Below are positions 20,783-60,923 of a stretch of DNA of 64,000 bases, one piece after another. The stretch covers positions 186,001-250,000 of the forward strand of contig JAVXUO010002690.1 of NCBI GenBank assembly GCA_033065855.1, given 5' to 3'. This DNA comes from Escallonia rubra. Taxonomy: Eukaryota > Streptophyta > Magnoliopsida > Escalloniales > Escalloniaceae. Position 1 is the stretch's first letter; every line of letters starts with the position of its first letter. Below the pieces are notes generated by a model that did no database searches, was not told the DNA's origin, and was given only the letters and a program-made list of their open reading frames with translations. Made by a program: the position numbers and the translations under genes.

Positions 20783-21114
20783 TGTTCACAACCTATTCGG
20801 ACCGCACCCCAGGGCCCGCTAAGGGACCCCTATTGCACGACACGTCACCCGCTTGTCAGTCAAAATTGCTCAACATCATTAGTCGGTCAAAGCGCTCCGT
20901 GCCTCGAGCATCAGGACGACGATCAAACTCAAAGTGCAGATTCCCCCCGAGGGGTCGGCCACCCCCTGAGAAGGGGGTCGGCCACCCCCCTCAGAAGGGG
21001 GTCGGTCACCCCTTAGGAGGGGGGTCTTTGGGGGAGGCCACTACTACCATCTCCCTCAACGCATTCTGCAATGCTCACTCATCACCAGTGGTTGTGTGAT
21101 GCCCGTTGTCGCCC

Positions 21115-22367: not shown

Positions 22368-22375
22368 TATAAATA
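22368..22375 (+). promoter_or_regulatory. LTR TATA box
   Basis: TATAAATA with a G-box/ABRE-like ACACGTGTC about 35 bp upstream. The same pair occurs at the same place in the other three LTRs of this family. Confidence 0.6.
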
Positions 22376-22717
22376 GTGGACTTTGGAGCTCATTCTGGGG
22401 ACTTCTCTCTTATTTGACATTTTCACTTTCTCTCTCTAAAACTCATTCTCTCTGGATTTCTAGTGAGAGAAAGACATTTGGACTCCTGTCATCGGACCCT
22501 TGACGCTGCACCCTTGACACGGACTGTCGACCGCCGGCCCTGTTCGTCGTCACCCTGCCTGCGCGGCGCTGCCAGCCCTCGCGACTTGTCTGGGGAGCCT
22601 TGCTCTCAGCCCTTACTCCATCCTTGATGTCTCCCACTTTGTCTACTTGGAAGCTGACTCAGACTGCGTCCTTTGGGGCACCTCTACGTGGCAACGAACC
22701 TTTTTTCCTAGGCAACA

Positions 22718-23237: not shown

Positions 23238-23369
23238 CTATGTGTTGGCAGATCGGAGGTTGGCTGAGTCCATATACTCCTTTGGGTACTCGACCATGTG
23301 CGCTGCCTGCTATGCCAGGACTATAAGGAAATAAAGTTGTGCCCTTACTAATAGCAATTACTTTTGGTG

Positions 23370-23427
23370 TAGTGGTAAGCACTTGATCCTAACAATTGGT
23401 ATCAGAGCAAGTCACGGGTTCAAGTCC
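23370..23427 (+). promoter_or_regulatory. tRNA-like A box and B box across TRIM LTR end, PBS and internal region
   Basis: TAGTGGTAAGC (23370-23380) resembles a Pol III A box as in plant tRNA-Asp. GGTTCAAGTCC (23417-23427) resembles a B box, with GGG/CCC able to pair around it as a T arm. The spacing of 47 bases between box starts is in the tRNA-gene range. The PBS lies between the boxes. LTR 2 keeps an A-box-like CAGTGGTAAGC but has no B box. Activity is inference. Confidence 0.45.
23397..23408 (+). other. Primer binding site, initiator tRNA-Met
   Basis: TGGTATCAGAGC, the standard plant copia/TRIM PBS, two bases after the end of LTR 1. Confidence 0.9.
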
Positions 23428-24088: not shown

Positions 24089-24303
24089 AGGGATTGTTGG
24101 CAGATCGGAGGTTGGTCACGTCCATCTACTCTCTTGTGTACTCAACTGTGTGCACTGGCTGCTGTGGTAAGACTATAAGGAAATAAAGTTGCGTCCTTAC
24201 TAATAGCAATTTTTTTTGGTGCAGTGGTAAGCGTTTGATCCTAACACTATGAAATCGAAGATTGAAAATGCTTCAAGTTTCTTAAATATTGCGCGTTGCA
24301 CAT

Positions 24304-26514
24304 TGTTCCCAACCTATTTTGGTCACACCTAAAGGCTCAATGGGGTCCCAATTTCTATGACACGTCCGCACAAGCAACAGTCAATATTCAACGCTCGCAA
24401 CCGGTTAAAGCGTGCACGCTCAAGTCACGTGCACTTCTCACTTTTGTTACGTTACTTCGTCACTAAGAAACTCATTTTCGCGCGACACCTTATCACGCTT
24501 CGACCGCCGCACATCGCATATTGTCCGTCGGCCCGCCATGGCACTTGCCCAAGGAAGTGGGCATTGGCCTTCCCCTTGGGGTTGGCCTCGATCTTGGCCT
24601 TCCCCACGGGGTCGGCCTCGGCCTCCCCTTAAAGGTTGGCCTTTGGTGTCCATACTTAACACCTTCACTTCTCTTCAAGGGACCATACATCACTCCACGA
24701 CCCCGTCGCCCGGACTTCACTCCGTAACCCCGTCGCTCGTCGCCCGGACGTCATTTCTGCGACCCCTGTCGCCCGTCGTCCGGACGTCGCCGGCGCCCGT
24801 GCGCCAACTTCGCGACGCTCATCGTCCATCGCCCGTACGTCGTCTCCGCGACCTCCGTCGCCGACATCCAGGCGTCGCACTCTAACAGTCCGCCGCGCCC
24901 GTGCGTCGCACCGCTGATACAGCCGTGCCCCCAGGCTCTCTATCACACAGACGTGCCACCGGCACCTTACTCAAGCCGTCGCGCCCGTGTACCGCGCCAC
25001 TAACACAGACGTGCCCCCGACACCTCACTCACTTCATCGCGCCCATGCCCCATAATCATGTTACATGCCCCCCGGGCACCACACTCATTCACCACACCAT
25101 GCACACCTTGCCTTGGTTGTGGAACATGCTTCGACCCACTCTCCGGAGTGTACATCATCCTGCGGGAATAGGCGACTCCTCTGAGACACTATCTCTGCCA
25201 GGGAGCTCTAAGTGCTCTAGCATGAAGACTCCCCTTCCGCCAGGTAGACGGCTCCTCTGGGATGCTACCTCGGCCCATCAGGTAGATGGCTCCTCCGGGA
25301 TGCTACCTTGACGCGCTCCGAGTGCTTCAGCACAAGGACTCACCCGCAGGGATAGACGACTCCTCCGGGACACTATCTCTGCCAGGGAGCTTTTCAACTC
25401 CCCTTCTGCCAGGTAGACGGATCCTCCGGGATGCTACCTCGGCCTGTCATGTAGACGGATCCTCCGGGATGCTACCTTAACGCGCTCCGAGTGCTCCGGC
25501 ACAAGGACTCACCTGCAGGGATAAGCGACTCTTCCGGGACACTATCTATGCCAGGGAGTTTTTTAACTCCCCTTTTTGCCAGGTAAACGGTTCCTCCGGG
25601 ATGCTACCTTGACGCGCTCCGAGTGCTCCGGCACAAGGACTCACCCGCGGGGATAGGCGACTCCTCCGGGACACTATCTTCGCCAGGGAGCTCTAAGTGC
25701 TCCGGCACGAAGACTCCCCTTCCGCCAGGTAGACGGCTCTTTCAGGATGCTACCTCGGCTCGCGGAATAGATGATTCATCTGGGACACTATCTCTTCCAG
25801 GGTGCCTGCGTGACTGGCTGACGTGCTCCGGCACTGGGGGCTTGCGTCAACACCCCTAGGGACTATGACCCCCGGGTGACTCCGAGACGGGAGCAGGTCT
25901 TCGGAGGGCATCGCGCCTAGTTCACCTGGCAGTTGGGCGACGGGTCTTCCCCACCGCTGCCAGGCCTGTGGGACTCCGCAAGGGCTTGGATTGGTGGCTA
26001 GATCAAGGGGTGTTCTCTGGCCACACCGACGCTGTGGGAGCCAGTCTTTCCAGACAGACAGAGCGACGCTGTGAGGAGTAGGCCAGGTGAATATGCGATC
26101 CGACAGTCCGTGGAGCACCGGCACCCGTGGACCCCCCCGGTGACTTGTCACTCTCGGGGAGCGCCACGTGTCAGTTAATGACATCATCATCTCAATCTCT
26201 ATAAATAGAGGTCTTGAGAATTCATTTGGGATGGAACTCTCATATTTTCACTTTCTTACTTTAAAATCCTAGAGAGAGAAACATACAGGACCCTGACTCT
26301 GGACCTAAGCATCGGACTGTGACTGTCGTCGTGTATTCATCATGCGCCATCGCCCTCGCAGCACTGCCACCCTCAGGCTCTGTCTAGGAAGCCCTTGGTC
26401 TTTGCCCTTGCTCCACCCTTGTTGTGTCCCACATCAGTACACTTGGCATCTGATTCGGACTGCATTCCTTGTGGCACCTCCACGTCGACTGCGAACCAAC
26501 TTTCCTTGACATCA
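24304..26514 (+). mobile_element. Solo LTR, GC-rich gypsy family (same as 43581-45798)
   Basis: Starts TGTTCCCAACCTATTTTGG and ends TTTCCTTGACATCA, matching the complete LTRs at 43581-45798 and 48986-51395. Length 2211 bp. Flanks CACAT (24299-24303) and CAAAT (26515-26519) differ at one base, consistent with a slightly decayed 5-bp TSD around a solo LTR left by LTR-LTR recombination. It contains the CCTTGGCC-type repeats (24560-24650), a GTCGCCCGGACGTC stretch (24700-24880) and the long repeat (25160-25790), then TATAAATA at 26200-26207. Confidence 0.88.
25160..25790. repeat. About 160-bp tandem repeat in the solo LTR, about 4 units
   Basis: Units follow the pattern CTCCTCCGGGACACTATCTC, CCAGGGAGCT, CCAGGTAGACGG, CTCCGGGATGCTACCT and GCTCCGAGTGCTCCGGCAC. 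Copies differ by internal deletions. The same array occurs in the two LTRs of the complete element. Confidence 0.85.
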
Positions 26515-35064: not shown

Positions 35065-38000
35065 ATGGCTCGTCAGCATTTGCACGAGCTGTTGAAAGAA
35101 GATCAAGAGCCATTCCAGTTGAAAAGCTACATTGATGACCGGCGTTTACAGCTCAAGAACAAACCCACCACCAGACCCACAACATTGCAAGTCAAGAAGC
35201 GCAAATCTATTGTTGAAGCCTCGGCTTCCACCTCAAACCGTAGCGTCTGCAAGCAAGCCTGCTTTAGTTTCTCGTTCCACGACTCTCCAGATGTCAGAAG
35301 ATCGCCGCTGATCAATTTTTCGCCGGTGAAAAGTCCATCTAAGAGTCCCAACACCGTTTTTCTACACATTCCGGCCAGAACTGCCTCTTTGCTTTTAGAA
35401 GCCGCAATGAGGATTCAAAAGCAGCAGTCATCAACTTGTAGTTCTAAACCCAAATCCACAAAAAACGTGGGGTTTGGGTTACTGGGTTCTCTTCTGAGGA
35501 AATTGAGAGACAAAAACCGGACAAAAAAACGTGAGATTGTTGGAAGTGAGGAGGTGGACGAAAATTTGGTGGGTGTGGAAGATAAGATTGTTCATGAGTT
35601 GGGTTTCTCTTGTAATAACAGTAGGCTTAGTAGCGCTGGCTGGTCTGAGAGCAATGAAGAGAAATCTTTGGATATGGATACTTCCAGTAGTTGCAGTAGG
35701 TCCGAGGACTTGGAAGAGAGAGAAAATGGTGGGTTTGATTCTTGTGAGAAGCACTTCTGTTCAAGCCCTTTAAGTCCTTTTCGTTTTTCACTTCAGAGAA
35801 GCCCTTCCGACCGAAGTACGCCGGAGTTTTTATCGCCGGCGGCGTCTCCCAGCCGCTGCATCAAACAGGTTCGGCTTGATATTTGGTCATATTATGTACA
35901 TGTGATGACTCTGTGTGTGTGTGTGTACAATGTGGTTTGACAGAGTCAACTCGTGTCTCAGCTGTGTGAGCTGGACTGTTTGGACTAACCGGCAAAACTG
36001 AATCGCTGGCCGGAATGTCCCCCTTGAATGACAAAGATGCACATGATTATTTTTCTACAGTTTTAGATAATGCAGTCAATGTTGAGGGTTTTATATGTCA
36101 TTTTGTCTCTGGTTATCTGCACATTTCTGTTTGTGTGGTAAACTGTACTTTGGATCACAATCTCTGCCACAAAAATCTTTTCTTAAACACACTTGCCCAG
36201 AAAATAATTTTCCGAAAAATGACAAATCTGGATTTTATTTTTTGAATCGGACCCCTGGATAACAGTCCAAAATCCTTCAGTTCAGCCACCCAAAGCTTAC
36301 ATTATTGTGAAGTTAACATCTAAAGAATGTGCTAGAAAAGTCAACATTCGACATTTCTGAATCATGGATTTTAGCACAAGATGACAATGCTAATTACATA
36401 ATTGTATTGTTGTCGGAGCAACAGTAAGCTTGCTTTATTGTGACCGGAACCTTTACTCAAAAACTGCCGTAAAGCTGTGTCACTGTGATGAAAGGCTCGT
36501 GCACCAGGCCTCCCTGCTGGTGTAAAGAGTTTATACATGATTGGGCATTTAAACTGCAAATTATTGGTGCTTATTAGAGTTTTACAATGACGTAAAATTG
36601 GTACGCTGGCCTCCCGGTGGTTGTAAGGAGAATTTATATATATGGGAACTTAGAAAGCAAGATATATCACTTGTTATCATGTATCTGAAGTTATGTTAAT
36701 GTTTGATAGATATCCTGCTTAAATTTGTTTCGAGTACATGTCAACTATATACTTGACATTCTAGCATTTGCTGATTATGGTTCTTCTTAAATTAGGAGGA
36801 ACAGATAGACGAAGCAGAGAGCTTAGGAAAAACCCAACTAGAGGAGGAGGAAAAGGAACAGTTCAGTCCTGTATCGGTGTTGGATCCTCCATTTGAAGAC
36901 GATGATGAAGAACGCGAAGGTGGCGACGAGGTTGAGGACGAGGAGGAGGAGGATGTTTATGATCTTGAATGCAGCTATGCACATATGCAGAGTACGTACT
37001 AGTTACTTGTTACATGCACGTAAATCTTTCAATTTGTTCAGCTCCATATCGGTTGTGTGGTCCTTTTCAACATACATGGTACATGCATTGGTTTAGACTT
37101 TTATGCTTGGTGAATAGATTCAGAAGGTGTCGTGATCAACGTTGATTATATCGATTTTGAAATCTGAATTATTTGTGGGATCAATGAGAACTTTCTTGAT
37201 CGTAGTGTACAAATGGTTGTACGCAAAAAGTGTACTACAGCAATGAGGTGTGCAACAATTTTCTGTTATTTGTGACCTCATTTGGTCTGTAAATTAGACA
37301 ATGCTAACATGGTCATAACTTCGTGTGCGACCCACATCTAGGTGGTGGGGATAAAATCCTTAATGGCCATCGTCCTTGCGAGTTCAATGAACTGTAGCAA
37401 TCATCCATCTTCTGTTGGCGGATTTTTCTGGCTTTGCTGTTTGTTTGGTGGTTTTGATCTTGACATGAACTTATTTTTCAGAGGAAGCCTTTCTATCATG
37501 GTCTCACTACCCTACCAATCTATTCTGACTTCAGAAGCAAGCTGCAATATCACCTGATCTGGATATAATAATTCTTTTGTACCTAACTATTTTTGAATTT
37601 ATTTCTCGTACTTCTTTGCGTTAGAAATTATCTGGTACCCTTTCATCCTTTATAGCTTTGTGTGGGACTGAATTCGTACGGGGTTGAATTCCCTCTTAAT
37701 CTTTCAGCATTTGCTTTGTGGGGCAGTAATCATCTTAATCAGCACCTTTTTGCTTAAACTGCCTAGTTTATTTTAGTATCGGGGTGCCGGTTCAGCCAGA
37801 AATTTAGCTTCAAAAGTCTATATAACATTTATCATACTGCATGTAGGAAAGGTCCCTATAAATGAAGGTACTCTAGGAAATTAGTTGGCAGATCAAATGA
37901 AGTAACTATGAAAGAAGGAACTCTAGGAACTCAAGCCATAACAGAAGGGGGATATCTTTCCTCACTCAATTATAACAGAGATGCATCATCTTATCTAGTC

Positions 38001-38656
38001 TATATCCCCGCTACAATGCATAGCAGCATAAGCATTTTCTCTCCAGCTACTGCGTTCTCCTTTATAAATTACCTATAATCAAGAACGTAACTTGTAGCCT
38101 TTTTCAGATTCTCATTTTCTTTCAACTCCCCTTGCTTGCAGGAACCAAACAACAGCTTCTGCAAAAGCTTCGTAGGTTCGAGAGACTGGCAGAGTTGGAC
38201 CCTATTGAACTTGAGAAAAGAATGCTAGAAGAACAAAGTGACGAAGATGATGATGATCACCTAGTGGACGACGAGGAGTGTGATTGTAATGATGCGTTAT
38301 TTTACAGTGAAGAGATTGTTGATACCTTTGTCAGAGAAGTGTTGAGCAGATCGAGTTTTCAGCATCTTAGGAAAATTCCAGGCGACATGAAAAGGTTGGT
38401 ATCAGACCTCATTGCCGAGGAAAGAAAGAATTGCGTAGATGATAATGAAGTGGTGACCGAGCGCGTTTCCAAGAGGTTGGATTCATGGAAGGGAGTGGAA
38501 TCAAACACCATTGACATGATGGTAGAACTGGATTTCAGAAGAGAGATAGGTGGATGGAAGAGGTATGATCAGGAGCAAATGGGAGAGACGGCGATGGAAA
38601 TTGAGCTCGCTATATTCGGGTTGTTGCTGGAAGAACTATCAGAAGAACTAGTCTAA
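35065..38656 (+). CDS. TRM27/TRM28-like protein (TON1-recruiting-motif / DUF4378-like)
   Basis: Three exons: 35065-35868, 36796-36991 and 38142-38656 (stop TAA 38654-38656). Introns are phase 0 and phase 1 with GT..AG borders. The protein is 504 residues. The N-terminus has LLKEDQEPFQLKSYIDDRRL (residues 9-28), a proline/serine-rich stretch SPVKSPSKSPNTVF, and a basic region around LGSLLRKLRDKNRTKK. Exon 2 holds EEQIDEAESL, EQFSPVSVLDPPFEDDDEE and a run of Asp/Glu. Exon 3 holds QQLLQKLRRFERLAELDP, a helix-like LFYSEEIVDTFVREVL, and the C-terminal ELDFRREIGGWKRYDQEQMG..EIELAIFGLLLEELSEELV pattern typical of TRM/DUF4378 C-termini. Known TRM proteins bind TON1 and act at cortical microtubules and the preprophase band; that role is inferred here. 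The ATG is the first in frame. A candidate poly(A) signal lies at 38704-38709. Confidence 0.85.
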
Positions 38657-40744
38657 TTAGTTGGAGTTTAATGGAAACCTTTGTGGTGTTTCTGTTTAGT
38701 CCAAATAAATTTTGGTTCCTCAAAGTTCATTTCATTAAAAGGATCATAGTCTGACTTTGCACTGTGGAGGGATAGGCTAATCACAAGTGTCTAAGATTAA
38801 ACCCTAGTAGTATCTGGGTTAGATGGTAGTAGCATGGTATGATGTACATGTATCATAGTTTGTAGTTGGGAAGGTATATGTATCCTTGCTTATTGAGACA
38901 TGAGGTCTACTATATTACTATAACCCTTTATTTTCCTTGAGGAAAGGGAGAGTATTTCTGTTCTAAAATTTCATCTGCTCTAAAAGTTTAAGCTGGTAGG
39001 AAATGAACTTAACAATGTACTCCATGCTTTAATATTTTTTTACGTGCAAGACCCGGATGCACGTGGATAGACAGACATAATGAAGTGCACCAGAACATAA
39101 GACATAAATATATAGGGTGCAAATTGCACTATAATGAACGAGAATCAAATATGCAAGCATGAAGAATCAAACTCAAGACCTTGCGAAATCATAGCTCGGC
39201 TGCCATGTTAAGTCACTATCTAGTATCTACTCTAAAAGTTTAAGTTACTACGGTACAGACTCAACAATCGATATCATGCTTTACATGTTTTAAGAAAGAC
39301 CGCGGAAAGACTGCTTCAGAAATTTTATCAAGTTCATGCCTTAGGCGTTTCTTACTGGTAAAAGGATTATGGCAAAGAAAGATCAAACACCTGCCGACAC
39401 TGAAACATAATTCTAAGATGGAATTTTCAGCAAGGAATAAGATTCCTGGCCTTTTCCCCAGGAAAGAACAAAAGCCATGAAAGCAGCCTTTAATTACCTT
39501 TGTTTCCCATGAATAGAAGCAGCATCTCTTGTTTTTTTCCTTTTAGCATTAGCATCTTTCTTTCCTCTAATCCATTTGTGCTAAACACCCACACCAATAA
39601 TCTCTCTATTCTATTCAATGCTTGGTCATGAAGCTGCCTTTTCAATAAGGTTAACCAACTTTCAACCGTCAATATAAGAAGTACAAATACCATTAAACAA
39701 GTTCACAGTTACCTCCATTATTGCCAAGAGAAAGCTAAGTATTTGGAGAGAATGTGGCAAAAAGCTTACACTTTATGCCATGCCAAGCCATTTTCTGTTC
39801 AACCAATTAAATAAAAAGTACCAACTACATGGTATTGGGAGAAATTAAAAACTCTAGAAATGGTCACTGTCTTTCTCTATCAAGTTGGGTTCACGAGGAG
39901 TCACCAACAAGGAATGGGCGGAGTAGGACAAAGGGTTTTGCGAAACCTTGATTAGTATACTCCAACTACCAAGAATGGGAAGCCCAATATCTGGGTTTTC
40001 ATGTTTTTTAGCACTTTAAAGGCCATTCCCAAATAAAATAGAGGTAAAGTTTTGATATGAATTCTTCACTTGTAAAGGAAAATTGCATTTTCGAGCTGCG
40101 ACTTCGAGCCGAAAGACAACTTGTAACCACCACTAAAAACAAAGCGATTAGAAAAAAATGTTTTCTTTTTTTATAGATAAAATCAAGTCTCATGATTCAC
40201 AATAAAACATGTTTGAATATTATAGACATATTAATTATTGTAGCAACTGCTTGGAAGTATCAAACTTAGATGTATTGCAAAAGTATCCCAAAAAAGAAAA
40301 AAAGAAATTTCCTCTGGTGATGAAAGAACCCTTTATGGTACCCTGGTTTGGAAATGAATTTTTTTTTTATATATATTGAGTACCTTGTTGGTTATAAATA
40401 TCCTAACTCATCGTCAATGGCAACCATGTTCTTGTACCTTTTTTAGTTTTTTGATTACTTGGGTTGGGATAAGAATTACAAGGAAAGCAGTGGCCAATAG
40501 TTGAAGGTTTTGATGTTTGGTGAGACCACTAATCGCTCAAAAAGCTGGACATGGTGGTTGCGTGTTGGCTTTAGAATATTCATGCAAACCAATTATTTTG
40601 TCTTTGAACCGGCCAAAAAGAGTACTTTGGGGGCTTGAAGGATTCTGAACTGAAAAATCAATTGCTTTATAGGTTGGGTTGATCATATTAGATCATTTAC
40701 TCCAACTGTCCTGGAAAGTATTTCAAAAATTAAGACCCTTATCG
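38657..40744. other. 3' flank of TRM-like gene and intergenic
   Basis: AT-rich. Around 38970-39270 a related phrase CTCTAAAAGTTTAAG occurs twice (about 38978 and 39230). The minus strand between them reads like a tRNA-derived SINE (GCAGCCGAGC..TTGAGTTTGATTC), but no TSD was found. No gene supported. Confidence 0.4.
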
Positions 40745-41893
40745 CACTATAACAAAAAAGACTTTTAGCGACGGGCAACTCCGTCGCTAAAAGTCTCCTT
40801 TCCGTCGGAAAAGACTTTTAGCGACGGAATGTCCGTCGCTACATTCCGTCGCTAAAAGTCCGTTGTAAAAAATTCCGTTGCTAAAAGTTTAGCGGCGGAA
40901 TGTTGTCATCCGTCGGAAAAAGTTTAACTTTTAGCGACGGATTATATTATCTTTAGCGACGGATTTTTCCGTCGCTAAAGATAATTTTGGTATTTTCGCT
41001 TTTTATGTTTCTCGAAATTAATTTCTGAAAATACTTTTAGCGACGGAATATTCTATCGCTAATAGTATTACCGACGAATTTTTGCTAAAAATTCTTAGCA
41101 GCATAGGAGACCTTTTAGCGACGGAAAATCCGTCGCTAAAAGTCTTTTCCTAAAATTTGAAACTTTTTGCAACATATTTCCGTCGCGAAAAACCATCTAT
41201 GATTTGTTTAAAATACTTATGACAACGTAATTTCGTCGCTGAAAATCCATCAGCAAAAATTGAAAAAACTATTTTTCAATTGTTTTTATCTTTTAAAAAT
41301 CCAAACTTGCTTTCTGTATTTGAATTCATACGAACAATTAAATCCACTAATCCATCCGACAATCAACCCTAATCAACCAATATATTGAAAATTTTATTCT
41401 TTAAACTGACATTCATTCTTTACCAAATTTGACATCATACAAATAAGATTTAAGTCATACACCATCAATTAACACTTAAATACTAACTTTTTCTAAATAT
41501 AATAGATCACATTGAACATATTCCAAAATAAAATTACAAGTTTCATTGAAACGAAAAAATATAAACCAGAACATTGCTCCAAAAGCCTGCACAATACTCC
41601 CAAGATAGGCACTCAATTCTAATTGTGCCTGAAAGAACATGTACATTACCCACTATATAAATGAAAAATGCTTTAGGTATATGATGAGAACTACATAACA
41701 CTTATATTTTCTTCTGAAAGAACAAAGATATAAATATTCTGAAAGAACAAAGATATTTTAGCACCATCCTTTTTGTTTCCGACTGCCATCCTACATTGCA
41801 TTACTATTACACTTTTAGAGTTACTTTAGATTCAAAAACCCTAGCCCCAGTGCATGTTAGCCCTGTCAAGATCACTTCACATACATAAATGAT

Positions 41894-41895
<2 letters not shown>

Positions 41896-41944
<49 letters not shown>
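41896..41944 (+). repeat. (TC)n microsatellite inside the CACTA element
   Basis: About 24 uninterrupted TC units read directly. Confidence 0.9.
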
Positions 41945-41946
<2 letters not shown>

Positions 41947-42489
41947 GCTCTTCACAAGAGTACCAAGAGGAACACATAACACAGAGCTCTTAGAACTGCT
42001 AAAAACCCCACCACTTGCTCATCTACTCAAAATTTGAATCCAATAAAAAACACCATCATTAACCTAATTGCTACAATCATACATGAGTGTGTTATTTGCC
42101 TATACACTCACACACAGCTACACCTACCCATGTACTTTTTAAATACAATATTTGTATTCAACCTTTTACTAAGGGGAATCATGATTTTCTTTCTTAGAGT
42201 CCATAACAAACTTGGCACTTTGACATGACTTGACTTTGGATAGATAGATTATCATCATCACTATGAACCTGATTTGTGCAGGCCACACAATATGAAGCCA
42301 AGTGTGTATATTTCATGACTAGATATGTTCAAGGCACATTTTGATTTCCAAAATAGCAATATCATTTATGTTGTTGATCCAGAGAATGTTACAACACTGC
42401 CATCGTCGCTTCATGTCATCACTTGAAGCAAAGCAATCTCAAATCACAACATGATGACCATACTTAGTACAAGTAAACGTGTGTCCATT

Positions 42490-42700
42490 TCAGCTGGGTT
42501 CAAAGAACTTTAGCTTAAGTCTGTTGTTGACCATACTCCAAATACCACCAAGCTAAAAGCAATGCCCAACCAAGGGTCCAATTTAGATACCAATTGAAGC
42601 TGAACTTGGCTGGTCTTTATATGAGAACCCACAAGAAGCAAGGGTAATACAATGTGACTGGAAGAGTTCCTCCTAACAAGCCAGCAAGACTAGCCAAGAA
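42490..42700 (-). pseudogene. Captured C-terminus of an AAAP-family amino acid transporter
   Basis: Read on the minus strand: FLASLAGLLGGTLPVTLYYP, CFLWVLI, then a stop (TAA), RPAKFSFNWYLNWTLGW, and after a frameshift LGIAFSLVVFGVWS, and finally LKLKFFEPS with a stop at 42490-42492. The order (small-residue membrane helix, YPCFxW, (K)RPAKFS..W..NW, another hydrophobic helix, LK(F)F.PS end) matches the C-terminus of LHT-type amino acid/auxin permease family transporters. One in-frame stop and at least one frameshift make it non-functional as a transporter. It lies wholly within the CACTA element, so it is a captured fragment. Confidence 0.75.
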
Positions 42701-43002
42701 AGTTTTTTTGGAAATTACTCAAACAATTAAGAACCAAAAGAAATGTCACTGCAAGAAGTCCTCTCGCAATGTCATGACTATGCGATCTAATTAAAGAATT
42801 AGAACTGAGATAAAACTTTTACTAAACTTTTTTACTTGGGCAAACATTTCTTTGTTCTTCCTGTCCGCTAAATCCTAAAATTAAACTAAATGACCAATCA
42901 TCGCGAAATTAATGCCGAACATAGCTCTTTTTTCCTTTTCAGTTATCAAGCAAACACACCAGGAACAATTTCACTCGAAACTCTAAGAGAATGATGTGAT
43001 AC

Positions 43003-43078
43003 CTGCAAGAATAGAGACCATCCTCATGGCCTTCCGCTTGCCTTTGTCATGGTGTAAATCCAGTTTCAAAATAAATTT
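43003..43078 (-). pseudogene. Captured, intact HMA-domain exon (HIPP-like)
   Basis: A 76-bp minus-strand exon preceded by TTGTTGTGGCAG (acceptor) and followed by GTATCACA (donor). It reads KFILKLDLHHDKGKRKAMRM then VSILA, with one base carried over for the next codon. This is the beta-alpha start of the heavy-metal-associated domain of HIPP-type proteins that lack the CxxC pair. In that family I recall exon 2 starting at just this point after a tiny 'MK' exon. The frame is open and both splice sites look usable, but exon 1 and exon 3 were not found nearby. It sits in the CACTA element about 300 bp upstream (minus sense) of the transporter fragment. Confidence 0.7.
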
Positions 43079-43299
43079 CTGCCACAACAAAATAATAAAC
43101 AAGCGATTCATATAGAGCCTTCTTACAACCAGCCAATAAAACCAGATCTAGATAGATGTTCGATTTACTGACATCAAAGATCTAATTTAAAGTTAGCAAA
43201 CTTAATGAAAGGATAATAGAATTAAATCACGTAGACACACAACATACATAGTGGGATCTTATATAGAATTAAAGAACCAAAAAGTTTTAGAAGTAAAGA

Positions 43300-43545
43300 A
43301 CCAGTGTGGTATCACGAAAACGATGTTGCTTGGTAGACGCGGAGGGAGCGCTGGTTGAGGCGGCGGCAGCAAGGCGGTGGGCCTGTGGTTGGGGTGATGA
43401 CGCCGTCGGGGAAGAAGAGAGGTAGCGGAGGTAGGCGGTGGCCTACAGTGGATGTCGGATGAGCTAAGTGCGAGAGAGTGGGAAGGAAGAGAAGAATAGG
43501 TGCGGCCGTGAGAAAGTAAGGAGGATTAGGGTTTTTAATAGCATT
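43300..43545 (-). other. Gene-5'-end-like fragment in the CACTA element
   Basis: On the minus strand this reads AAAAACCCTAATCCTCC (a telo-box as found at many plant gene starts), then a CT-rich leader and a GC-rich stretch with short proline/serine/arginine-rich frames. This is the usual look of a plant promoter/5' UTR/first exon and unlike the AT-rich surroundings. No protein family could be named, and a link to the HMA exon downstream is not shown. Confidence 0.4.
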
Positions 43546-44484
43546 TCCGAAATATTGTACCCAAAAAAATCAAAAAGCATTGTTCCCAACCTATTCTGGT
43601 CGTACTCAAAGGCCCACTGTGGTCCCATTTTGCATGACACGTCCGTACAAGCAAAAGTCATTTTTAACGCTCACAACCGGTTAAAGCATGCACGCTCAAG
43701 TCACGTGCACTTCTCACTTTCGTCACGTTACTTCGTCATTAAGAAGCTCATTTTCGCACGAAGCCTTATCACGCTTCGACCGTCGCCCGTCGATACGCCA
43801 TGGCACTTGCCCAAGGAGGTTGGCCTTGGCCTCCCCCTTGGGGTCGGCCTCGGCCTTGGCCTTCCCCGTGGGGTCGGCCTCGGCCTTGGCCTCCCCATTG
43901 GGGTCAGCCTCGGCCTCCCCATTGGGGTCGGCCACGGCTCCCCTTGAGGTTGGCCTTGGCCTTCCCCGAAGGGTTGGCCTTTGGCATCCATCCTTAGCAC
44001 ATTCACTTCTCTTCAAGGGACCATACATAACTCTGCGACCCCCGTCGCCCGGACACAACTCCGTGACCCAGTCGCCCGGACACGGACATAACTCCGTGAC
44101 CCCGTCGCCCGGACACAACTCCGCGACCCCCATCGCCGGCGTCCGGACGTCGCACTTCAACACTTCGTTGTGCCCGTGCGCCGCGCCGCTGATACAGTCG
44201 TGCCCCCAGGCTCTCTATCACACTATCGTGCTCCTGGCACCATACGCACTATGTCGCGCCCATGCGCCACCATTGACACAAACGTGCCCCCGACACCTTA
44301 CGCACTCCGTCGCGCCCGTGCACCGCGCCACTAACATAGACGTGCCCGCGGCACCTTACGCACTTCATCGCGCCCATGCGCCATAATCATGTTACATGCC
44401 CCCGGGCACCACACTCATTCATCACACCATACGCACATTGCCTTGGTCATGGAACATGCTTCAACCCACTCTCCGGAGTGTACA

Positions 44485-45065
44485 TCATCCTGCGGGGATA
44501 GGTGACTCCTCCGGGACACTATCTCCGCCAGGGAGCTCTTCAACTCGCCTTCCGCCAGGTAGACGGCTCCTCCGTGATGCTACCTCGGCCAGTCGGGTAG
44601 ACGGCTCCTTCGGGATGCTACCTTGACATGCTCCGAGTGCTCCGGCACAAGGACTCACCTGTGGGGATAGGCGACTCTTCCGGGACACTATTTCCGCCAG
44701 GGAGCTCTTCAACTCCCCTTCCGCTAGGTAGACGGCTCCACCGGGATGCTACCTCGGCCAGTCGGGTAGACGGATCCTCCGGGATGCTACCTTGACATGC
44801 TCCGAGTGCTCTGGCATAAGGACTCACCCGCGGGGATAGGCGACTCCTCCGGGACACTATCTCTTCTAGGGAGCTCTTTAACTCCCCTTCCGCCAGGTAG
44901 AAGGGTCCTCCGGGATCTTTGCCAGGGAGCTCTAAGTGCTCCAGCACGAAGACTCCACTTCTGCCAGGTAGACGGCTCCTCCGGGATGCTACCTTGGCCG
45001 GCCAGGTAGACGGCTCCTCCGGGATGCTACCTCGGCCTGCGGAATAGGTGACTCTTCCGGGACAC
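44485..45065. repeat. Long tandem repeat in the 5' LTR
   Basis: About 3.5 units of the same 160-170-bp pattern seen at 25160-25790 and 49970-50665: GGGATAGGTGACTCCTCCGG, ACACTATCTCCGCCAGGGAG, CCAGGTAGACGGCTCCTCCG and CTCCGAGTGCTCCGGCAC. Confidence 0.85.
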
Positions 45066-45474
45066 TATCTCTGTCAGGGTGCCTGCGTGACTGGCCTACG
45101 TGCTCCGGCACTGGGGGCTTGCGTCGGCACCCCTAGGGACTATGACCCCCGGGTCACTCTGAGACGGAAGAAGGTCTTCGGAGGGCATCGCGCCTAGTTC
45201 ACCTGGCAGTTGGGCGTCGGGTCTTCCCCACCGCTGCTAGGCCTATGGTACTCCGCAAGAGCTTGGATTGGAGGCTAGATCAAGGGGGTTCTCTGGCCAC
45301 ACTGATGAGGTGGGAGCCAGTCTTTCTTGACAGACATAGGGACGCTGTGCGGGGCAGGCCGAGTGAATATGCGATCTGACAGTCCATAGAGCACCGGCAC
45401 CCGTGGACCCCCCGGTGACGTGTCACTCCCGGGGAGCGCCACGTGTCGGTTTATGACATCATTATCTTAATCTC

Positions 45475-45482
45475 TATAAATA
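45475..45482 (+). promoter_or_regulatory. LTR promoter: TATA box with G-box upstream
   Basis: TATAAATA; CACGTGTC (G-box/ABRE core) lies 35 bp upstream at 45440-45447 and TGACATCAT between them. The trio is kept in the LTRs at 24304-26514 and 48986-51395, and nearly so at 20783-22717, which suggests it drives transcription of the family. The transcript start is presumably about 30 bp downstream. Confidence 0.65.
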
Positions 45483-45801
45483 GAGGTCTTGAGAATTCAT
45501 TTGGAGGACTTCTTCTTCACTCTCTCACATTTTCACTTTCTCACTCTAGAATCCTAGAGAGAGAAACATACAGGACCCTGAATTTGGACCTAAGCATCGG
45601 ACTGTGACTGTCGTCGTGTATTCATCCTGCGCCATCGCCCTCGCAGTACTGCCACCCTCAGGCTCTGTCTGGGAAGCCCTTGGTCTCTGCCCTTATTCCA
45701 CCCTTGCTGTGTCCTACATCAACATACTTGAAAGCTAACTCGGACTGCAGCCTTTGTGGCACCTCCACGTAGCTACGAACCCACTTTCCTTGACATCATT
45801 T

Positions 45802-45819
45802 TGGCGACTCTGCTGGGGA
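45802..45819 (+). other. Primer binding site, tRNA-Arg-like (Tat/Ogre type)
   Basis: TGGCGACTCTGCTGGGGA, three bases after the 5' LTR. It is close to the TGGCGACTCC.CTGGGGA site used by Ogre-type plant gypsy elements, recalled to pair with tRNA-Arg. Starting TGG (complement of CCA) and position fit a PBS. Confidence 0.8.
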
Positions 45820-45865
45820 GGTGAGCATCGTACTGCAGTCTGTCTATCTTCCGCACTCAGTCTCC

Positions 45866-47589
45866 ATGCCTAGACAACGAAAAGTTACGGGGGCTGCCAG
45901 CCAGGGCCTTATCCATGCCGTGCAAGAAGAGGACCACTAAGGTGAACAAGAGGGGACCAGTGCTGTGCGTCCCCAAGACCATCCACAAACTACCGCACCT
46001 GACATACAAGTTGCAGTCAATGCGGCCATCCAGCAGTTTTCACCCACTATAGCCACTCTTATGACAGCCATGGTAGAAATGCAAAAATCAATCCAAGTCT
46101 TGACTTCACAATCACCGATTTCCCAAAGCCTTAGAGCGCTGCACCCTGTGCCCATTACTCACCCCGTGTTATCCCAAGATCCAGGTTTGGCCTCTCCTGC
46201 TCATATCCAACCTTCAAGGCCTGGGCTAGTTTTGGACACTGCCCAGGTCCCAGTGTCGCAACCACCGCTGCCTTGGTCCTCCGGGCCCTCGACAGTAGGA
46301 CTCGTGGCACCTCAGCCCCCGGCACCACGCCTTGCCCTTGCTCGAAGAACTTCGGAGACTCACGAATCAATTGAGATGGAGCCTAACCCGAACATAACCA
46401 GCCGAAACCTAAACACAAGTCATTCCCCCGGCTTACTCCAGTCGACCTTTCCTGACGACCGGCCTCCAGCAGCTGACACTACCCATGTGCAAACCATGCC
46501 CCAACAAGTTGCTCACCACCACTAACCCCTCTCTACCATCGTTATCCCCTCAATGCCTCAGGCTGTACCGTCTGGGGGCTCTGGTGCTCGGATCATCTCG
46601 ACAGGACACAAACCCTCACATGCGTCGTACGTCACCAAGCATGACCTTGATGCCCTCCTTCACCGTCTCAAGCAGTCATCCTTACCCCATTCCCTCTCTA
46701 AGCTGTCAGGCCATGCTCCCTACTCTGGCAGCCTCGCTACCAAGCCTTACCCCTTCAAGTACAAGCAACCATCCTTCACTTTGTTCAATGGCAAAGAGGG
46801 CAACGCCCGCGAGCACCTCACCCATTTTACTGGCTCCCTAGAGCACTACGGGGAGGATGACACTTTGAAGCTTCGGGAATTTCACAAGTCCCTGACTGGC
46901 CTCGCCTACTCTTGGTATCATCAGATTCCTGACAGTACTATCCATTCATGATCCAGCTCTTCCTTGACAAGTTTTACTATGAGACAGAACGTGTGACCAT
47001 CGTTGACATCACCGGGATCCGCCAAAATCCCAGGAAAGACCTCAACACCTATGTTACGCGTCACTAGTGCTTGGAGTGCACTGACTTCAGCAAGGATGAA
47101 ACCCTTGTGCTCATTTGCATCAAGAACATGAATGACATCTACAAGGTCTACCTTGAAAACCTCGAGCTTCGATCTTGGGGACATCTCAAGGAAGCTACAC
47201 GACACACCTATGACTCGGTCGGTCCGTCAAAGACCCCAAAACCCCAACCTCATATTGTCGTGGCCGTGACAATGGAAGCAGCTAGTAACGACGACAACAA
47301 CCGTAAGCGCCAGTCCCAAGGAAGGGACGGGCGTCCTGACAAGAGAGGGCAGCCGATGCCTGCCCCGGAATACCCGTGTGACTTGAAGACTGTTAGAAAT
47401 CTCCTCGCGACATGGATCGATGACAATGCCATAACCCTGCCCAATGTCGACAATGAACCTACCCCGGAAGACTTAGCCCGTCACAACTACTGCCCCTATC
47501 ATCAGAAGGTCGGTCATGGCCTCAAGTGGTGCAGGGGCCTCAAGTTTGTCTTCGCCGACAAGATTGCGTCTGGAGAGCTCAAACTCTAA
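45866..47589 (+). pseudogene. Decayed gag of the gypsy element
   Basis: The frame opens at ATG 45866 and is broken by stops at 45938-45940 and 46523-46525, a one-base frameshift near 46949 and a stop at 47065-47067, then stays open to 47589. The N-terminal third is proline/glutamine-rich. The core has KYKQPSFTLFNGKEGNAREH, LTHFTGSLEHYGEDDTLKLR, EFHKSLTGLAYSWYHQIP and later LVLICIKNMNDIYKVYLENL, the typical retrotransposon capsid pattern. Near the C-terminus YCPYHQKVGHGLKWCRGLK gives a C..H....H....C-type zinc knuckle. Several lesions look like G-to-A or C-to-T changes (TGG to TAG, for example), as expected after DNA methylation. It cannot make a full-length Gag as it stands. Confidence 0.88.
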
Positions 47590-48985
47590 GTACGAGAGAT
47601 ATGACCTACCCGACCAAGCCTTGGCATGCCTTAGTGCATTTTCCACACTTGTAATTTTTTGTTCATTTTGCAAGTTTTCATGTACGTCACACCCATGTAT
47701 CAAGGCATGCTGTCTATCCTTCGTTATCAATGAAGTTACATTTTCCAGACTTAGAAAAATTTCAAGCTACATTGCTCTTACACAAGTCTATTGATATCAC
47801 CCTTCATGCCATCACCCACTCCATTAGGGGCTTCACCCTTTCCCAACCCCTTCGGCCTCACCTTGCAACGACTTGGTACGTGGTGCGCGGGGTGGCTCGA
47901 GCTGCGCTACTACGGTCGCATCATCACCCTTCATTAACTTTCCTTGACACTTAGAAAAATTTTCATTTTTTTGCAACCGGTCATCGATGATCATCTTCAG
48001 TGGTCTCCCTCAGCATCCTTGTCTCAGCCCAACACTTAGAAAAAAAAATTCATTTTTTTCGCAGCCGGGTCACCACCCTCAACGGCCTCCCCTTAGCATC
48101 CTTGCCCGAATTCAAAAAAAAATTTCAACACTTAGAAAATTTTTCAAGTTTTTCATCTTCCCCACTACTCCCCACATTCATGCTCTCATCACTCTCCCTT
48201 TTACATTTTCCTCTCCTCCCTCACCATCCAACACCGCATCACCCCTTTCCCATCTTCATCATTCTTTCACCCAATCTAGCCTCCAAGGCATCTAACCTTC
48301 AACCACCTATCCATCCCTCACTTTCCTTCAAACCCATAACCTCTTCCCTGCGGTCACCACACTCAAGTCCACCCCGCCACCTTCGACCTTCACACCATGG
48401 CTGACATCCAATGCCGGCAATTTAAAAAAAAAAAAATTTGCAACATAGACCGACGTGCATCGCCCCCGCACATGCGCCCGTCGTGGACTGCCCCTGCATC
48501 GCGACGTCCGACCGCGCCCTTGTCGCGCCCCTCATGACGATGTCCCTCAACATCAACATCCTTGGTAGGTGGTGCGCGAGGTAGCTCGAACCACCTACTC
48601 CAACTCATTATTCGACGCTCGTCATCTGTCGCCCAGGCGCCGTCTCCGCGACCCCCATCGCCAGCGCCCCGTGCGCCGTCTCCGTGACGTTTGTCGCCCA
48701 TCACCCGGGTGACGTCGTTGCCACACTCGTCGTCCGTCGCCCAGGCGCCGTTAACGTGCTCGCGCCCCTGCGCCCTATCATCATGCCCTTGCGTCAACAC
48801 CCAAGCATCCCAAGGCTTTCGTAGGTGGTGCACGAGGTGGCTCGAGCCACCTACTCTTCATCATCATCATGCATTGACGACGTCAATAACTCGTCGGCCA
48901 AACAACATCAAAATCTTGCTAAGTGTTTATGAGTGCGGTGCCCGCTCGGGTTGCCCCTCCGCGCGCACCACACGCAAGTGGCTTA
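47590..48985 (+). other. Non-coding 3' internal region of the gag-only element
   Basis: No pol domains in any frame. Four or five copies of ACACTTAGAAAAATTTTCA-like phrases lie between 47747 and 48150. A hairpin motif around GGTGCGCGAGGTGGCTCGAG occurs three times (about 47880, 48570 and 48825). The last 80 bases before the 3' LTR are pyrimidine/purine mixed, with no polypurine tract. Confidence 0.7.
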
Positions 48986-51395
48986 TGTTCCCAACCTATT
49001 CTGGTCGTACCCAAAGGCCCACTGTGGTCCCATTTTGCATGACACGTCCGCACAAGCAAAAGTCATTTTCAACGCTCACAACCAGTCAAAGCATGCACGC
49101 ATAAGTCACATGCACTTCTCACTTTCGTCGCGTTACTTCGTCACTAAGAAGCTCATTTTCGCACGAAGCCTTATCACGCTTCGACTGTCGCCCATCGATG
49201 TGCCATGGCACTTGCCCAAGGAGGTTGGCCTTGGCCTCCCCCTTGGGGTCAGCCTCGGCCTTGGCCTTCCACTTGGGGTCGGCCTCGGCCTCCCCTTGAG
49301 GTTGGCCTTGCCTTTCCCGAAGGGTTGGCCTTTGGCCTCCATCCTTAGCACATTCACTTCTCTTCAAGGGACCATACATAACTCCGCGACCCCCGTCGCC
49401 CGCACACAACTCCGTGACCCCCGTCCCCCAGACATAACTCCGTGACCCCGGTCGCCCAGACACAACTCCGCGACCCCGTCGCCTGGACACAACTCCGTGA
49501 TCCCCGTCGCCCGGACACAACTCCGTGACCCCGGTCGCCCCGACACAACTCCGTGATCCCCGTCACCCAGACACAACTCCGCGACCCCCGTCGCCCGGAC
49601 ACAACTCCGCGACCCCGTTGCCAGTGTTCGGGCGTCGCACTTCAACACTTCGTCGTGCCCGTGCGCCGGGCCGCTAATACAGCCGTGCCCCCAGGCTCTC
49701 TGTCAAACTACCTTGCCCCCGGCACCATACGCACTCTGTTGCGTCCATGCGCCACCATTGACACATATGTGCCCCCGGCACCTTACGCACTCCGCCGCAC
49801 CCGTGCGTCGCGCCACTAACACAGACGTCCCCCTGACACCTTACGCACTTCATCGTGCCCATGCACCATAATCATGTTACATGCCCCCGGGCACCACACT
49901 CATTCATCACACCATGCGCACCTTGCCTTGGTCATGGAACATGCTTCAACCCACTCTCCGGAGTGTACATCATCTTGCGGGGATAGGTGACTCCTCCGGG
50001 ACACTATCTCCGTCAGGGAGCTCTTCAACTCCCCTTCCGCCCGGTAGACAGCTCCTCCGGGATGCTACCTCGGCCAGTCGGGTAGACGGCTCCTCCGGGA
50101 TGCTACCTTGAAATGCTCCGAGTGCTCTGGCACAAGGACTCACCCGCTGGGAAATGCGACTCCTCCGGGACACTATCTCCGCCAAGGAGCTCTTCAACTC
50201 CCCTTCCGCCAGGTAGACGGCTCCTCCGGGATGCTACCTCGGCCAGTCGGGTAGACGGATCCTCCGGGATGCTACCTTGACATGCTCCGAGTGCTCCGGC
50301 ACAAGGACTCACCCGCGAGGATAGGCGACTCCTCCGAGACACTATCTCTGCCAGGGAGCTCTTCAACTCCCCTTCTGCCAGGTAGACGGCTCCTCCGAGA
50401 TGCTACATCAGCCAGTTGGGTAGACGGCTCCTCTGGGATGCTACTTTGACTCGCTCCAAGTGCTCTGGCATAAGGACTCACCCGCGGGGATAGGCGACTC
50501 CTCCGGGACACTATCTTTGCCAGGGATCTCTAAGTGCTCCGGCACGAAGACTCCCCTTCTGCCAGGTAGACGGCTCTTCCGGGATGCTACCTTGGCCGGC
50601 CAGGTAGACGGCTCCTCCGGGATGCTACCTCGGCCTGCGAAATAGGCGACTCCTCCGGGACACTATCTCCATCAGGGTGCCTGCGTGACTGGCCTACGTG
50701 CTCCGGCACTGGGGGCTTGCATCGGCACCCCTAGGGACTATGACCCCCGGGTCACTCCGAGACGAGAGCAGGTCTTCGGAGGGCATCGTACCTAGTTCAC
50801 CTGGCAGTTGGGCGTCGGGTCTTCCCCACCGCTGTTAGGCCTGTGGGACTCCGCAAGAGCTTGGATTGGAGGCTAGATCAATGGGGTTCTCTGGCCACAC
50901 CGATGCGGTGGGAGCCAGTCTTTCCTGACAGACGGAGCGACGCTGTGTGGGGCAGGCGAGTGAATATGCGATCTGACAGTCCATGGAGCACTGGCACCCG
51001 TGGACCCCCCGGTGACATGTCACTCCCGAGGAGCGCCACGTGTCAGTTTATGACATCATTATCTCAATCTTTATAAATAGAGGTCTTGAGAATTCATTTG
51101 GAGGACTTCTTCTTCACTCTCTCACATTTTTACTTTCTTACTCTAGAATCCTAGAGAGAGAAACATACATGACCCTGACTTTGGACCTAAGCATCGAACT
51201 GTGACTGTCGTCGTGTATTCATCCTGCGCCATCGCCCTCGCAGTACTGCCACCCTCAGGCTCTGTCTGGGAAGCCCTTGGTCTCTGCCCTTGTTCCACCC
51301 TTGTTGTGTCCTAAATCAACATACTTGGAAGCTGACTCGGACTGCAGCCTTTGTGGCACCTCCACGTAGGTACGAACCCACTTTCCTTGGCATCA
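48986..51395 (+). repeat. 3' LTR of the gag-only element
   Basis: Same start, end and internal order as the 5' LTR, but 192 bp longer. The increase lies mainly in the CTCCGTGACCCCCGTCGCCC-type array (49380-49625, about 9 units against about 4) and in the long-repeat array (49970-50665). TATAAATA is at 51072-51079. Confidence 0.93.
49379..49625. repeat. 27-28-bp minisatellite in the 3' LTR, about 9 units
   Basis: Units of the form ACAACTCCGTGACCCC(C)GTCGCCCGGAC are stacked head to tail; the 5' LTR has only about four. The frames opened on both strands are repeat by-products. Confidence 0.88.
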
Positions 51396-52481
51396 AGCAT
51401 TTTTACCGACAAAATTTTTCGTCGGTAAAAGTCCGTTGGCAAAAGTTCCGTCGGTAAAAACATTTAGTGACGGAAAATTCCGTCAGTAAAAATACGTTGA
51501 CAAAATCCGTCGTTAAAACTTTTTAGCGACGAAAATTTCTGTCACTAAAATGTTTTAGCGACAGGTTTTTGCCGACAGCGTAATCCATCGATAAATGACA
51601 CTTTTAGCCACGGATTTTTGGCGACGGAATAAAATCCGTCGTTAAAAGTGTTTTTTCTTGTAGTGTCGGTTTTAAAATTTCGTTTTCATATTAAAAACTT
51701 AAAAAGAGTCAATTGTGTTTCGGGTCATTGGCTACATTTTTTCTAGTATAGGAGTGTCGGACAAACAAGGGCAACATGCGACTTGAAGGACACGATCCAA
51801 CGTGGAGAGCTCTCTCCACTCTCAATGAAGAAAAAGGTCTGTAGCTTAACTTTTTCGATCCAAAGTGTATCGCGTAGGAAGGTTACAAATTCGGTCAAGA
51901 GGAAGAAACTTTGTTGATAGGGTCATCTTCGGTGTAGAGCTAGTATGAGAGGAAAAAAAACTACCTACCCCATGGCTAGAGTCTTTAGGATAGGATTCCC
52001 ATCATTTGCAGTCGGAGGCGAAGGCGTGTGGAACTCGGGTAATTACATTCCGAACATGTTGCTCACTTTCCTAATATAGACATTGGCGGTATTCCTACCA
52101 CGGAAATGCTGCTACAAGTCAAAGCCATTCTTTAATTTATTTCTCTGCTGACCTAGAGCTATCTCACCCAGTTTTTGCTAGATTTTGTGTGAGCTACCGA
52201 ACGAACTGTGTTTAGCATTTTAGTCTTGGGAACGCATTAGCTGTCCCGCTTTCAGGTTGGGCAGTAAGGGTCGGAGAAAGGCAATCATTCATCCTTAAAA
52301 CCAGCGTTGCAATTATTTGCCGGGAGCAGGTGTGGCACAGGCGGACACGTGCTTAGTTGCTGTATCTGTTTTTCTTTTCTTTGTACTAGACATTTTATGT
52401 TATATAGACGAAATACTCATTTAAAAACTCTAAAAGGGATGTCTTTTTGTTAAACGTACACAAATAAAGAAAACTGATATT

Positions 52482-58960: not shown

Positions 58961-60923
58961 ATGGGCAGCAATTCAACACCTGAAGCAGCCCCACACCATG
59001 CCATCAAGATATGGGAGGTAAACAAAGACAGATTAGCTTCGATGGAACGGAAAATCTCCGATAAGCCGCGCTTGTTAAGCAAATCGGCTGGTCACAGCAC
59101 ATGTTGCATTTTTAGAGTCCCCCAGAGCCTTGTTGACATCAACGGTCGATCCTACCAGCCCCACATAATCTCAATAGGCCCATACCACCACGGCGAGCCA
59201 CACCTGGAGATGATAGAGGAGCACAAGTGGCGGTTTCTCGGCACGTTACTAAGTCGCACGCAAGGCAAAGAACTGGCCCTGGCGGACTACTTGCAGGCCA
59301 TACAACCACTGGAAAGGGAGGTGAGGGCGTGTTACTCCGAGACCGTGCGGTTCAACACCGACGAATTCATTGAAATGTTGGTGCTCGATGGTTGCTTCAT
59401 CATCGAGCTGTTTCGGAAAATTGTTGGGCTGGTTCCATGGGAGGAGGATGACCCGCTTATTTCCATGTCATGGGTGTACGCTTTCTTCCTAAGGGATCTT
59501 CTCAGACTCGAAAATCAAATCCCATTTTTTGTGCTGAAATGCTTGTTTGAGCTTACAAGGATGCCGAGTGAAGTCGATGGTCCCTCCTTGGCCACTGTGG
59601 CGTTGCACTTTTTCAACAACAGCTTGCAAAGGCCGGATGAAGTCATCGCGAAGCATCATAACCTTGAAGGCAGGCATTTACTCGACTTTCTTCGATCTAG
59701 TTTGATCCCACCCGATTTCAAAGAGCCTCAACTTGGCTGCAAGTCACAGCCCCATTTTATTGAATGTGTCTCAAAGCTTCGTCGTGCAGGTGTGTGGTCT
59801 TCTCTTGCTATCTTTTTTGTGTTCACTTTCCAAATGTCCTCAAAGTAGACGACGAATTAATTATCTTTTTGAAAGTTAGGTTGATCTATGTTTAAAGTGT
59901 TGATAAATACTACTTTTAGCGACACGTTCTAGTTCAAACTGTCCATGAAAGTCAGCTTTCTTCAACTTTTTACGGAGGGATTAAGTTGATTATAAATACT
60001 CGATCGGTTAACTTCCTAGTTTGGTGAAAATGTAACATTTTATTGATGAAAAAGAGTGAAAAAGCATATAAAATTGTGGAATAGCATTTCTCAAAAGTTA
60101 TATTCCCACAATATTGTGCATTTTCACCCATTATTTACTGCCCAAAATGTATTCGCCCCAAATTGTTAAAGCCTCTTAAGATCAAGGAGATAGTGTAGTA
60201 GTACATGCATCTTCCTAGAACGGTGGCTCGTAAAATGAAGATATTATTGCTTAGCGAGAGATGAGGCGTGAAAGTAGACTAGCTTGCACGTGCGACTTAA
60301 GGCTAGAACAGAGAAATGCCCGCTAGATTATGCTAAATCCTTCGACTCAGAGCAAGAGCAGAGAAATCCTGACCATTACTCGATCTGTCATCTTGGTGTT
60401 TGCAGGTATCATACTCAGTCAAGAAGAGGCTTACAGCTTCTTGGTGATAAACTTCAAACGTGGGGTGATCCAAATGCCAGCGATCACAATTGATGATTTC
60501 ATGGGCTCATTTTTGCTGAACTGCGTGGCATATGAGCAATGTCACAGCAGTTGTTCCAAGCACATGACAACTTATGCCACTTTCTTGGATTGCCTCATAA
60601 ACACAGGCAGGGATGTGGAGTATCTGTGTGACAGGAACATTATTGAGAACTATTTTGGAGCAGATGCCGAGGTGGCCAAGTTCATCAATAATTTGGGGAA
60701 AGATGTCACATTTGACATTGATCTGTGCTACCTGGCCAAAGTATTCACTGATGTGAATCAGTACTACAGGAATGGTTGGCATGTTCAATGGGCCAGCTTT
60801 AGGTACACTTACTTTGACACGCCATGGTCATTCATATCAGCAGTGGCTGCATTAATTCTTCTAGTTTTAACCGTGCTTCAGACACTTTACACCGTCCTTG
60901 GATACGTTAGTTCATCTCCTTGA
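58961..60923 (+). CDS. DUF247 (UPF0481) family protein
   Basis: Two exons, 58961-59789 and 60406-60923, with a phase-1 616-bp GT..AG intron; 448 residues, normal for the family. Hallmarks in order: CCIFRVPQSL (48-57), PHIISIGPYHHGEPHLEMIE (67-86), a LVLDGCFIIELFRK segment, LRDLLRLENQIPFFVL, CVSKLRRAG at the exon junction, then FKRGVIQMPAITIDDF, FLLNCVAYEQCH, LDCLINTGRDVEYLC and a C-terminal hydrophobic segment (about 418-440) that should anchor the protein in a membrane. DUF247 proteins have no settled biochemical role in general; some act in self-incompatibility of grasses, which cannot be assumed here. The ATG at 58961 is the first in frame; a second Met at residue 28 is less likely. No stops or frameshifts were seen, so the gene appears functional. 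Confidence 0.93.

Follow-up and report, generated by a model that had tools for sequence, protein, structure and literature searches.

A CACTA element of Escallonia rubra that probably carries pieces of two host genes and is split by an LTR retrotransposon

Multi-gene chimeras between CACTA termini are already published, as Tgm-Express1 in soybean and as Pack-CACTA elements in maize. Tgm-Express1 is described as a CACTA element in the wp allele with fragments of five unrelated host genes, which are spliced into chimeric transcripts (PMC1947982). The Pack-CACTA/Pack-TYPE elements described in Arabidopsis, maize and rice are non-autonomous elements with terminal inverted repeats (TIRs) and coding DNA between their ends, and the model put forward for gene uptake by Pack-CACTA is the joint mobilisation of neighbouring copies (PMC8903248). 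Captured gene fragments are also reported for CACTA elements in Chenopodium (PMC8978399), and a model of CACTA gene capture is reviewed elsewhere (PMC13317346).

The locus described here lies in a window of 64 kb, which is the whole stretch of Escallonia rubra DNA that was analysed. It resembles Tgm-Express1 as that element is presented in the literature, in that it belongs to the same superfamily and apparently combines exon and intron pieces of several host genes. However, Tgm-Express1 measures 5.7 kb, lies within an intron and is spliced, whereas the Escallonia element measures about 3.1 kb, apparently holds pieces of two genes instead of five, is split by an LTR retrotransposon and is known from DNA alone (PMC1947982). 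The likeness to Pack-TYPE elements is that of a non-autonomous TIR element with coding DNA apparently lying between its ends. According to their description, the Pack-TYPE elements were set against host genes and sorted into clusters of copies (PMC8903248); the Escallonia element is judged from the sequence of one copy.

A sequence-only reading of this DNA that preceded the analysis had called the chimera probably not described. This applies at most to the individual copy and not to the kind, given the account of Tgm-Express1 (PMC1947982). A text search of the open-licence literature, which cannot match sequence, found no published CACTA element with captured amino acid transporter and heavy metal genes. 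An individual copy like this one was not named in the titles among the matches listed in that literature, and when its subterminal motif was searched for there as text no plant CACTA element was among the matches listed.

Structure and class of the CACTA element

The element at 40745-51665 belongs to the CACTA (En/Spm, CMC) superfamily. It reads CACTA...TAGTG over 10,921 bp and has TCG on either side as target site duplication (TSD). The features found in it, including those of the nested retrotransposon, are listed below by position in the window.

40742..40744, no strand: TSD of the CACTA element, TCG, left copy
40745..41245, plus strand: left CACTA end with an imperfect TIR (CACTATAACAAAA...) and subterminal TTTTAGCGACGGA repeats
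41246..42489, minus strand: interior depleted in CpG (o/e 0.24), past the stop codon of the AAAP piece
42490..42708, minus strand: decayed C-terminal piece resembling an AAAP (Aa_trans) transporter (Pfam, sub-threshold)
42986..43081, minus strand: piece resembling an HMA-domain exon (PDB phmmer; acceptor-like ...TTTGTTGTGGCAG before the piece, by eye)
43082..43325, minus strand: AT-rich, intron-like sequence separating the HMA piece from the GC-rich stretch
43326..43535, minus strand: GC-rich leader-like stretch starting AAACCCTAATCCTCC
43576..43580, no strand: TSD of the retrotransposon, AGCAT, left copy
43581..45798, plus strand: 5' LTR, 2,218 bp (direct repeats)
45799..48985, plus strand: internal region of the retrotransposon, 3,187 bp, with broken frames
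48986..51395, plus strand: 3' LTR, 2,410 bp (direct repeats)
51396..51400, no strand: TSD of the retrotransposon, AGCAT, right copy
51401..51665, minus strand: right CACTA end with TIR (CACTACAAGAAAA...) and subterminal repeats
51666..51668, no strand: TSD of the CACTA element, TCG, right copy

When the two ends are compared, the TIRs are identical at 11 of the first 13 bp and at 26 of the first 30 bp. A pattern made of the TIR and the adjoining CTTTTA, with up to two mismatches allowed, matches exactly twice in the 64 kb, in inverted orientation and at both ends of the element, against a chance expectation of 0.07 for the window. The right-end 13-mer is identical to the TIR of a radish En/Spm CACTA element as printed (PMC7210773).

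The subterminal motif, also with up to two mismatches, matches 28 times across the window. Sixteen of these matches fall in the left end (40763-41244) and 11 in the right end (51418-51647), which leaves a single one outside the ends. Across 100 shuffles the mean was 1.34 and the maximum six. The 27 matches at the ends lie in direct and inverted orientation at both of them, and at the left end the two orientations form palindromes. Three of the six matches in a stem-loop scan made with a bacterial terminator model are these palindromes; a bacterial promoter model is inapplicable to plant DNA. Each of the ends has a CpG o/e of 2.4. Neither the ends nor the core have a second copy within the 64 kb window, and an exact match to the CACTA end was not found in a viral contig collection, as expected for virus sequences.

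In known CACTA elements a transposase and a DNA-binding protein act via the TIRs and the subterminal repeats to move the element, and the tnp2/TNP1 transposase is needed only in autonomous copies. A transposase domain was not among the nine Pfam families (E up to 1) matched by 80 six-frame segments, taken stop to stop with at least 25 aa from 40745-43580, a range that leaves the 265-bp right end aside. The copy is therefore classed as non-autonomous.

The sequence-only reading had placed CACTA termini and TCG duplications at the limits of 40742..51668, and both were located there. Its description of the CACTA ends as perfect is correct for the 5-bp CACTA but does not extend to the TIRs. It also treated the whole range as one element and left a nested LTR retrotransposon of 7.8 kb unseparated. 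The range that it proposed for searching, 41240-43575, ends just short of the retrotransposon's first base (43581).

The nested retrotransposon and neighbouring features

The LTR retrotransposon at 43581-51395 fills 7,815 of the 10,921 bp, and the CACTA element without it and without one AGCAT copy comes to 3,101 bp. A single chimeric CACTA interior of 10.9 kb is ruled out because the greater part is this later retrotransposon. Its LTRs are direct with the termini TG...CA, and they align with 2,031 identical positions, 132 mismatches and 302 gap columns, which gives 93.9% identity over ungapped columns. The divergence between them is 0.064 (K2P). With 1.3e-8 per site per year, a commonly used substitution rate for plants, the retrotransposon was inserted roughly 2.5 million years ago, and the insertion of the CACTA element is older than this.

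Autonomous LTR retrotransposons require gag and pol. The Pfam scan (E up to 1) covered 24 of the 26 listed frames of at least 60 aa in the internal region, the two omitted frames being those that run into the 3' LTR, and no family was found in these 24; the retrotransposon is thus a non-autonomous or decayed copy. Some of its short broken frames look gag-like by eye, from their Cys/His pattern and layout. A gag label on profile evidence was dropped, since Pfam gave one weak match in the nested element, to an RNA-binding-domain family (E 0.25), and otherwise nothing. The element is like the gag-only non-autonomous TR-GAG elements in its LTR pair, in these gag-like frames and in having no pol domain in the scanned frames. 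It is unlike them in that its gag has no profile match and in that its LTRs, of 2.2-2.4 kb, are full of tandem repeats.

Tandem arrays were noted in the LTRs at 44489-44957, 49974-50611 and 49348-49650, with spacings of about 169 bp and 28 bp, and the copies listed differ in number between the 5' and the 3' LTR. An exact 26-base core of the LTR was absent from public prokaryote and viral contig collections, as expected for both. A solo LTR of the same family is found at 24304-26514, with 78.8% identity to the 5' LTR and the flanks CACAT and CACAA (four of five positions alike). A more distant relative at about 20783-22717 starts with TGTTCACAACC, has about 66% identity over the last 740 bp and is apparently also a solo LTR; it carries a tandem array with a unit of roughly 67 bp at 21109-21873. 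Near these, a 152-bp direct repeat (84%) at 23243-23394 and 24095-24246 flanks an AT-rich stretch and possibly represents the ends of another mobile element.

Other frames in the window are gene-like. Two of them, at 58961-59848 and 60330-60923, each correspond to one half of a plant protein of the DUF247 family (Pfam E 6e-65 and 4e-54), and what separates the two may be an intron, inserted DNA or a lesion of a pseudogene. Plant-gene-like frames at 35065-35940 and 38132-38656 have no Pfam family above the cut-off, and end about 2 kb to the left of the CACTA element.

Resemblances to host genes inside the element

The HMA resemblance lies in a minus-strand frame of 54 aa (43147-42986) that terminates in QKFILKLDLHHDKGKRKAMRMVSILAGITSFS. 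A search with phmmer against the PDB gave seven matches for a 37-aa piece (E 0.006-0.57), and E values of 0.017-1.8 were obtained with the whole frame. All seven alignments are in one register, from chain residues 3-7 to 33-36 in the N-terminal part. Two of the seven chains are named as HMA (Rmo2 and ancestral Pik-1) and one as 'integrated domain of Rmo2'. The remaining four are entered as 'protein kinase domain-containing protein' (twice), 'OSIGBa0128P10.9 protein' and 'NBS-LRR class disease resistance protein'; given their register, we take these to be HMA domains as well. One shuffled control had four unrelated matches in the PDB (E at least 0.88). In Pfam, with E up to 10, the piece had no match. 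The stretch upstream of it has a GC content of 31% (43090-43325), and an acceptor-like site directly before the similarity, recognised by eye, suggests capture of genomic DNA and not of cDNA.

The AAAP-like piece is interrupted by an in-frame stop at 42617-42619 and by apparent frame breaks. Its reading path follows the frame 42718-42620 to this stop, continues from 42616 onward, then passes through two other frames and finishes at a stop codon at 42490, which, from the sequence, looks like the transporter gene's own stop. With X at the stop only, the translation matches Aa_trans at profile positions 344-389 (E 0.01), and with a read-through that has X at all lesions at 344-408 of 410 (E 0.0028), both below the gathering score. 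None of eight controls (seven shuffled, one reversed) matched Aa_trans, and one of the shuffled ones matched another family (E 0.076). The PDB search with the piece gave no AAAP relative, only unrelated matches with E of at least 0.07. There is no CpG in the 219 bp of the piece. The interior of about 1.2 kb beyond the stop codon is possibly the 3' flank of the transporter gene, and it includes a (CT)n microsatellite at about 41896-41945. The ends of plant LHT-type transporters and the sequences of plant HMA proteins appear to agree with the sequence-only reading of the two pieces.

The two homologies are weak when taken singly, being short and sub-threshold. HMA and Aa_trans were both absent (E up to 1) from the Pfam scan of the 80 stop-to-stop segments, and the best of the nine other families were DUF3915 (0.00022) and BES1_N (0.003) with two members each, presumed to be chance matches that stem from the (CT)n/(GA)n stretch. 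On Pfam evidence by itself the case for gene pieces would not stand, because this unbiased scan matched neither family and nine others instead.

A separate observation, which does not depend on the protein matches, is the uneven CpG content. The o/e is 0.18 in 41246-42715 (7 observed and 39.5 expected), lower than in all 5,015 overlapping stretches of the same size outside the element, where the minimum is 0.31. In 42716-43580 it is 0.86 (29 observed and 33.8 expected), a value reached by 13.7% of same-size stretches, so this block is ordinary and only the other one is unusual. As a descriptive estimate, a single change point fits best at about 42,760 (the top five positions are 42,746-42,766), which is between the HMA and the AAAP piece. 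The break is compatible with two blocks that differ in origin or in age, though the difference could come from the composition of the parent sequences instead of the history of capture.

Origin of the pieces and meaning of the locus

The element is probably a non-autonomous, decayed DNA transposon of the Pack-CACTA kind in the En/Spm superfamily, with pieces of an HMA gene and an AAAP gene, and it was later split by the LTR retrotransposon. As judged from the anatomy, its TIRs and subterminal repeats would have been bound by a transposase and a binding protein supplied in trans. The content would be a piece of an HMA-domain gene (the exon and the intron-like sequence before it) and an AAAP C-terminus with the possible 3' flank, all on one strand. 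Their uptake may have been in the form of genomic DNA, for instance if two neighbouring copies moved together by means of their outer ends, and it probably took at least two steps, because the CpG content changes from one piece to the next. That the pieces were captured in the strict sense, and from two separate sources, is likewise inferred. The retrotransposon later inserted at AGCAT; it now lies between the gene scraps and the right end and has lengthened the element from about 3.1 kb to 10.9 kb.

If the resemblances to genes were due to chance the locus would be an ordinary CACTA deletion derivative, and the short, sub-threshold matches and the unbiased scan that found neither family are consistent with this. 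It is nevertheless very unlikely, since the seven PDB matches for the HMA piece share one register, and the transporter match falls at the C-terminal end of its profile and was given by none of the controls. A single capture is somewhat easier to accept, though still unlikely. Leader, intron, HMA exon and AAAP end would then have been neighbours at one host locus and have been taken up in one step, as their common strand and transcript-like order would allow, and to the eye the GC-rich and intron-like stretches with the acceptor resemble the 5' part of one gene. Against this stand the CpG break at about 42.76 kb and an AAAP similarity that begins partway along the profile of its family, at position 344 of 410.

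The GC-rich stretch (43326-43535) has about 60% GC, a CpG o/e of 1.19 and no ATG on the minus strand. Two origins are possible for it, as a leader that belongs to the element itself or as the HMA gene's first exon captured with the rest, and for this reason it is not counted as a third captured gene. The AT-rich stretch, the acceptor-like site and the HMA piece come after it, as they would after a first exon. If it is the promoter-proximal leader of the CACTA element, which has a real but somewhat less than even chance of being correct, the foreign DNA is limited to the HMA and AAAP pieces. In maize Spm a GC-rich, methylation-controlled region lies behind the subterminal repeats, and the stretch at this locus, with the retrotransposon discounted, is about 310-520 bp from the right terminus and directly behind the subterminal repeats; its high CpG and the missing ATG also agree with a leader of this type. 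On the other hand, the stretch also fits the leader of an ordinary plant gene (AAACCCTAA...CCTCC).

The preferred reading, a decayed Pack-CACTA-like element with pieces of two genes, partly agrees with the sequence-only reading, which had proposed a non-autonomous CACTA element whose pieces come from two or more host genes and share one strand. The anatomy, the weak but consistent homology and the CpG break speak for that proposal, from which the nested retrotransposon had to be taken away. The HMA exon that it named was retained for the common register of its PDB matches, as a weak resemblance without a Pfam match, and the AAAP C-terminus for the profile match up to position 408 that no control reproduced, which stays below the Pfam cut-off. 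Its GC-rich 'gene 5' end' exists as a stretch, but that it is a captured 5' end is no more than a possibility, with the element's leader or part of the HMA gene as its possible origins.

With the pieces broken and the element split by 7.8 kb, no protein product and little mobility are to be expected; the gene scraps would have decayed to the point of encoding nothing now, and the element is probably immobile. Before the retrotransposon arrived, the element might conceivably have used its GC-rich leader as a promoter-exon, with splicing first to the HMA exon and after that to the transporter piece. We consider this improbable, but if true it would make the element a mobile exon-shuffling cassette that brought host exons under transposon control.

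The locus is one more plant CACTA element that apparently assembles gene pieces, and it leaves the existing picture of gene capture as it was. The order of events is partly readable in it, with capture followed by loss of CpG in one block and then by the insertion of the nested retrotransposon. The CpG break could serve as a cheap marker of separate captures if it is seen again in copies whose parent genes are known.
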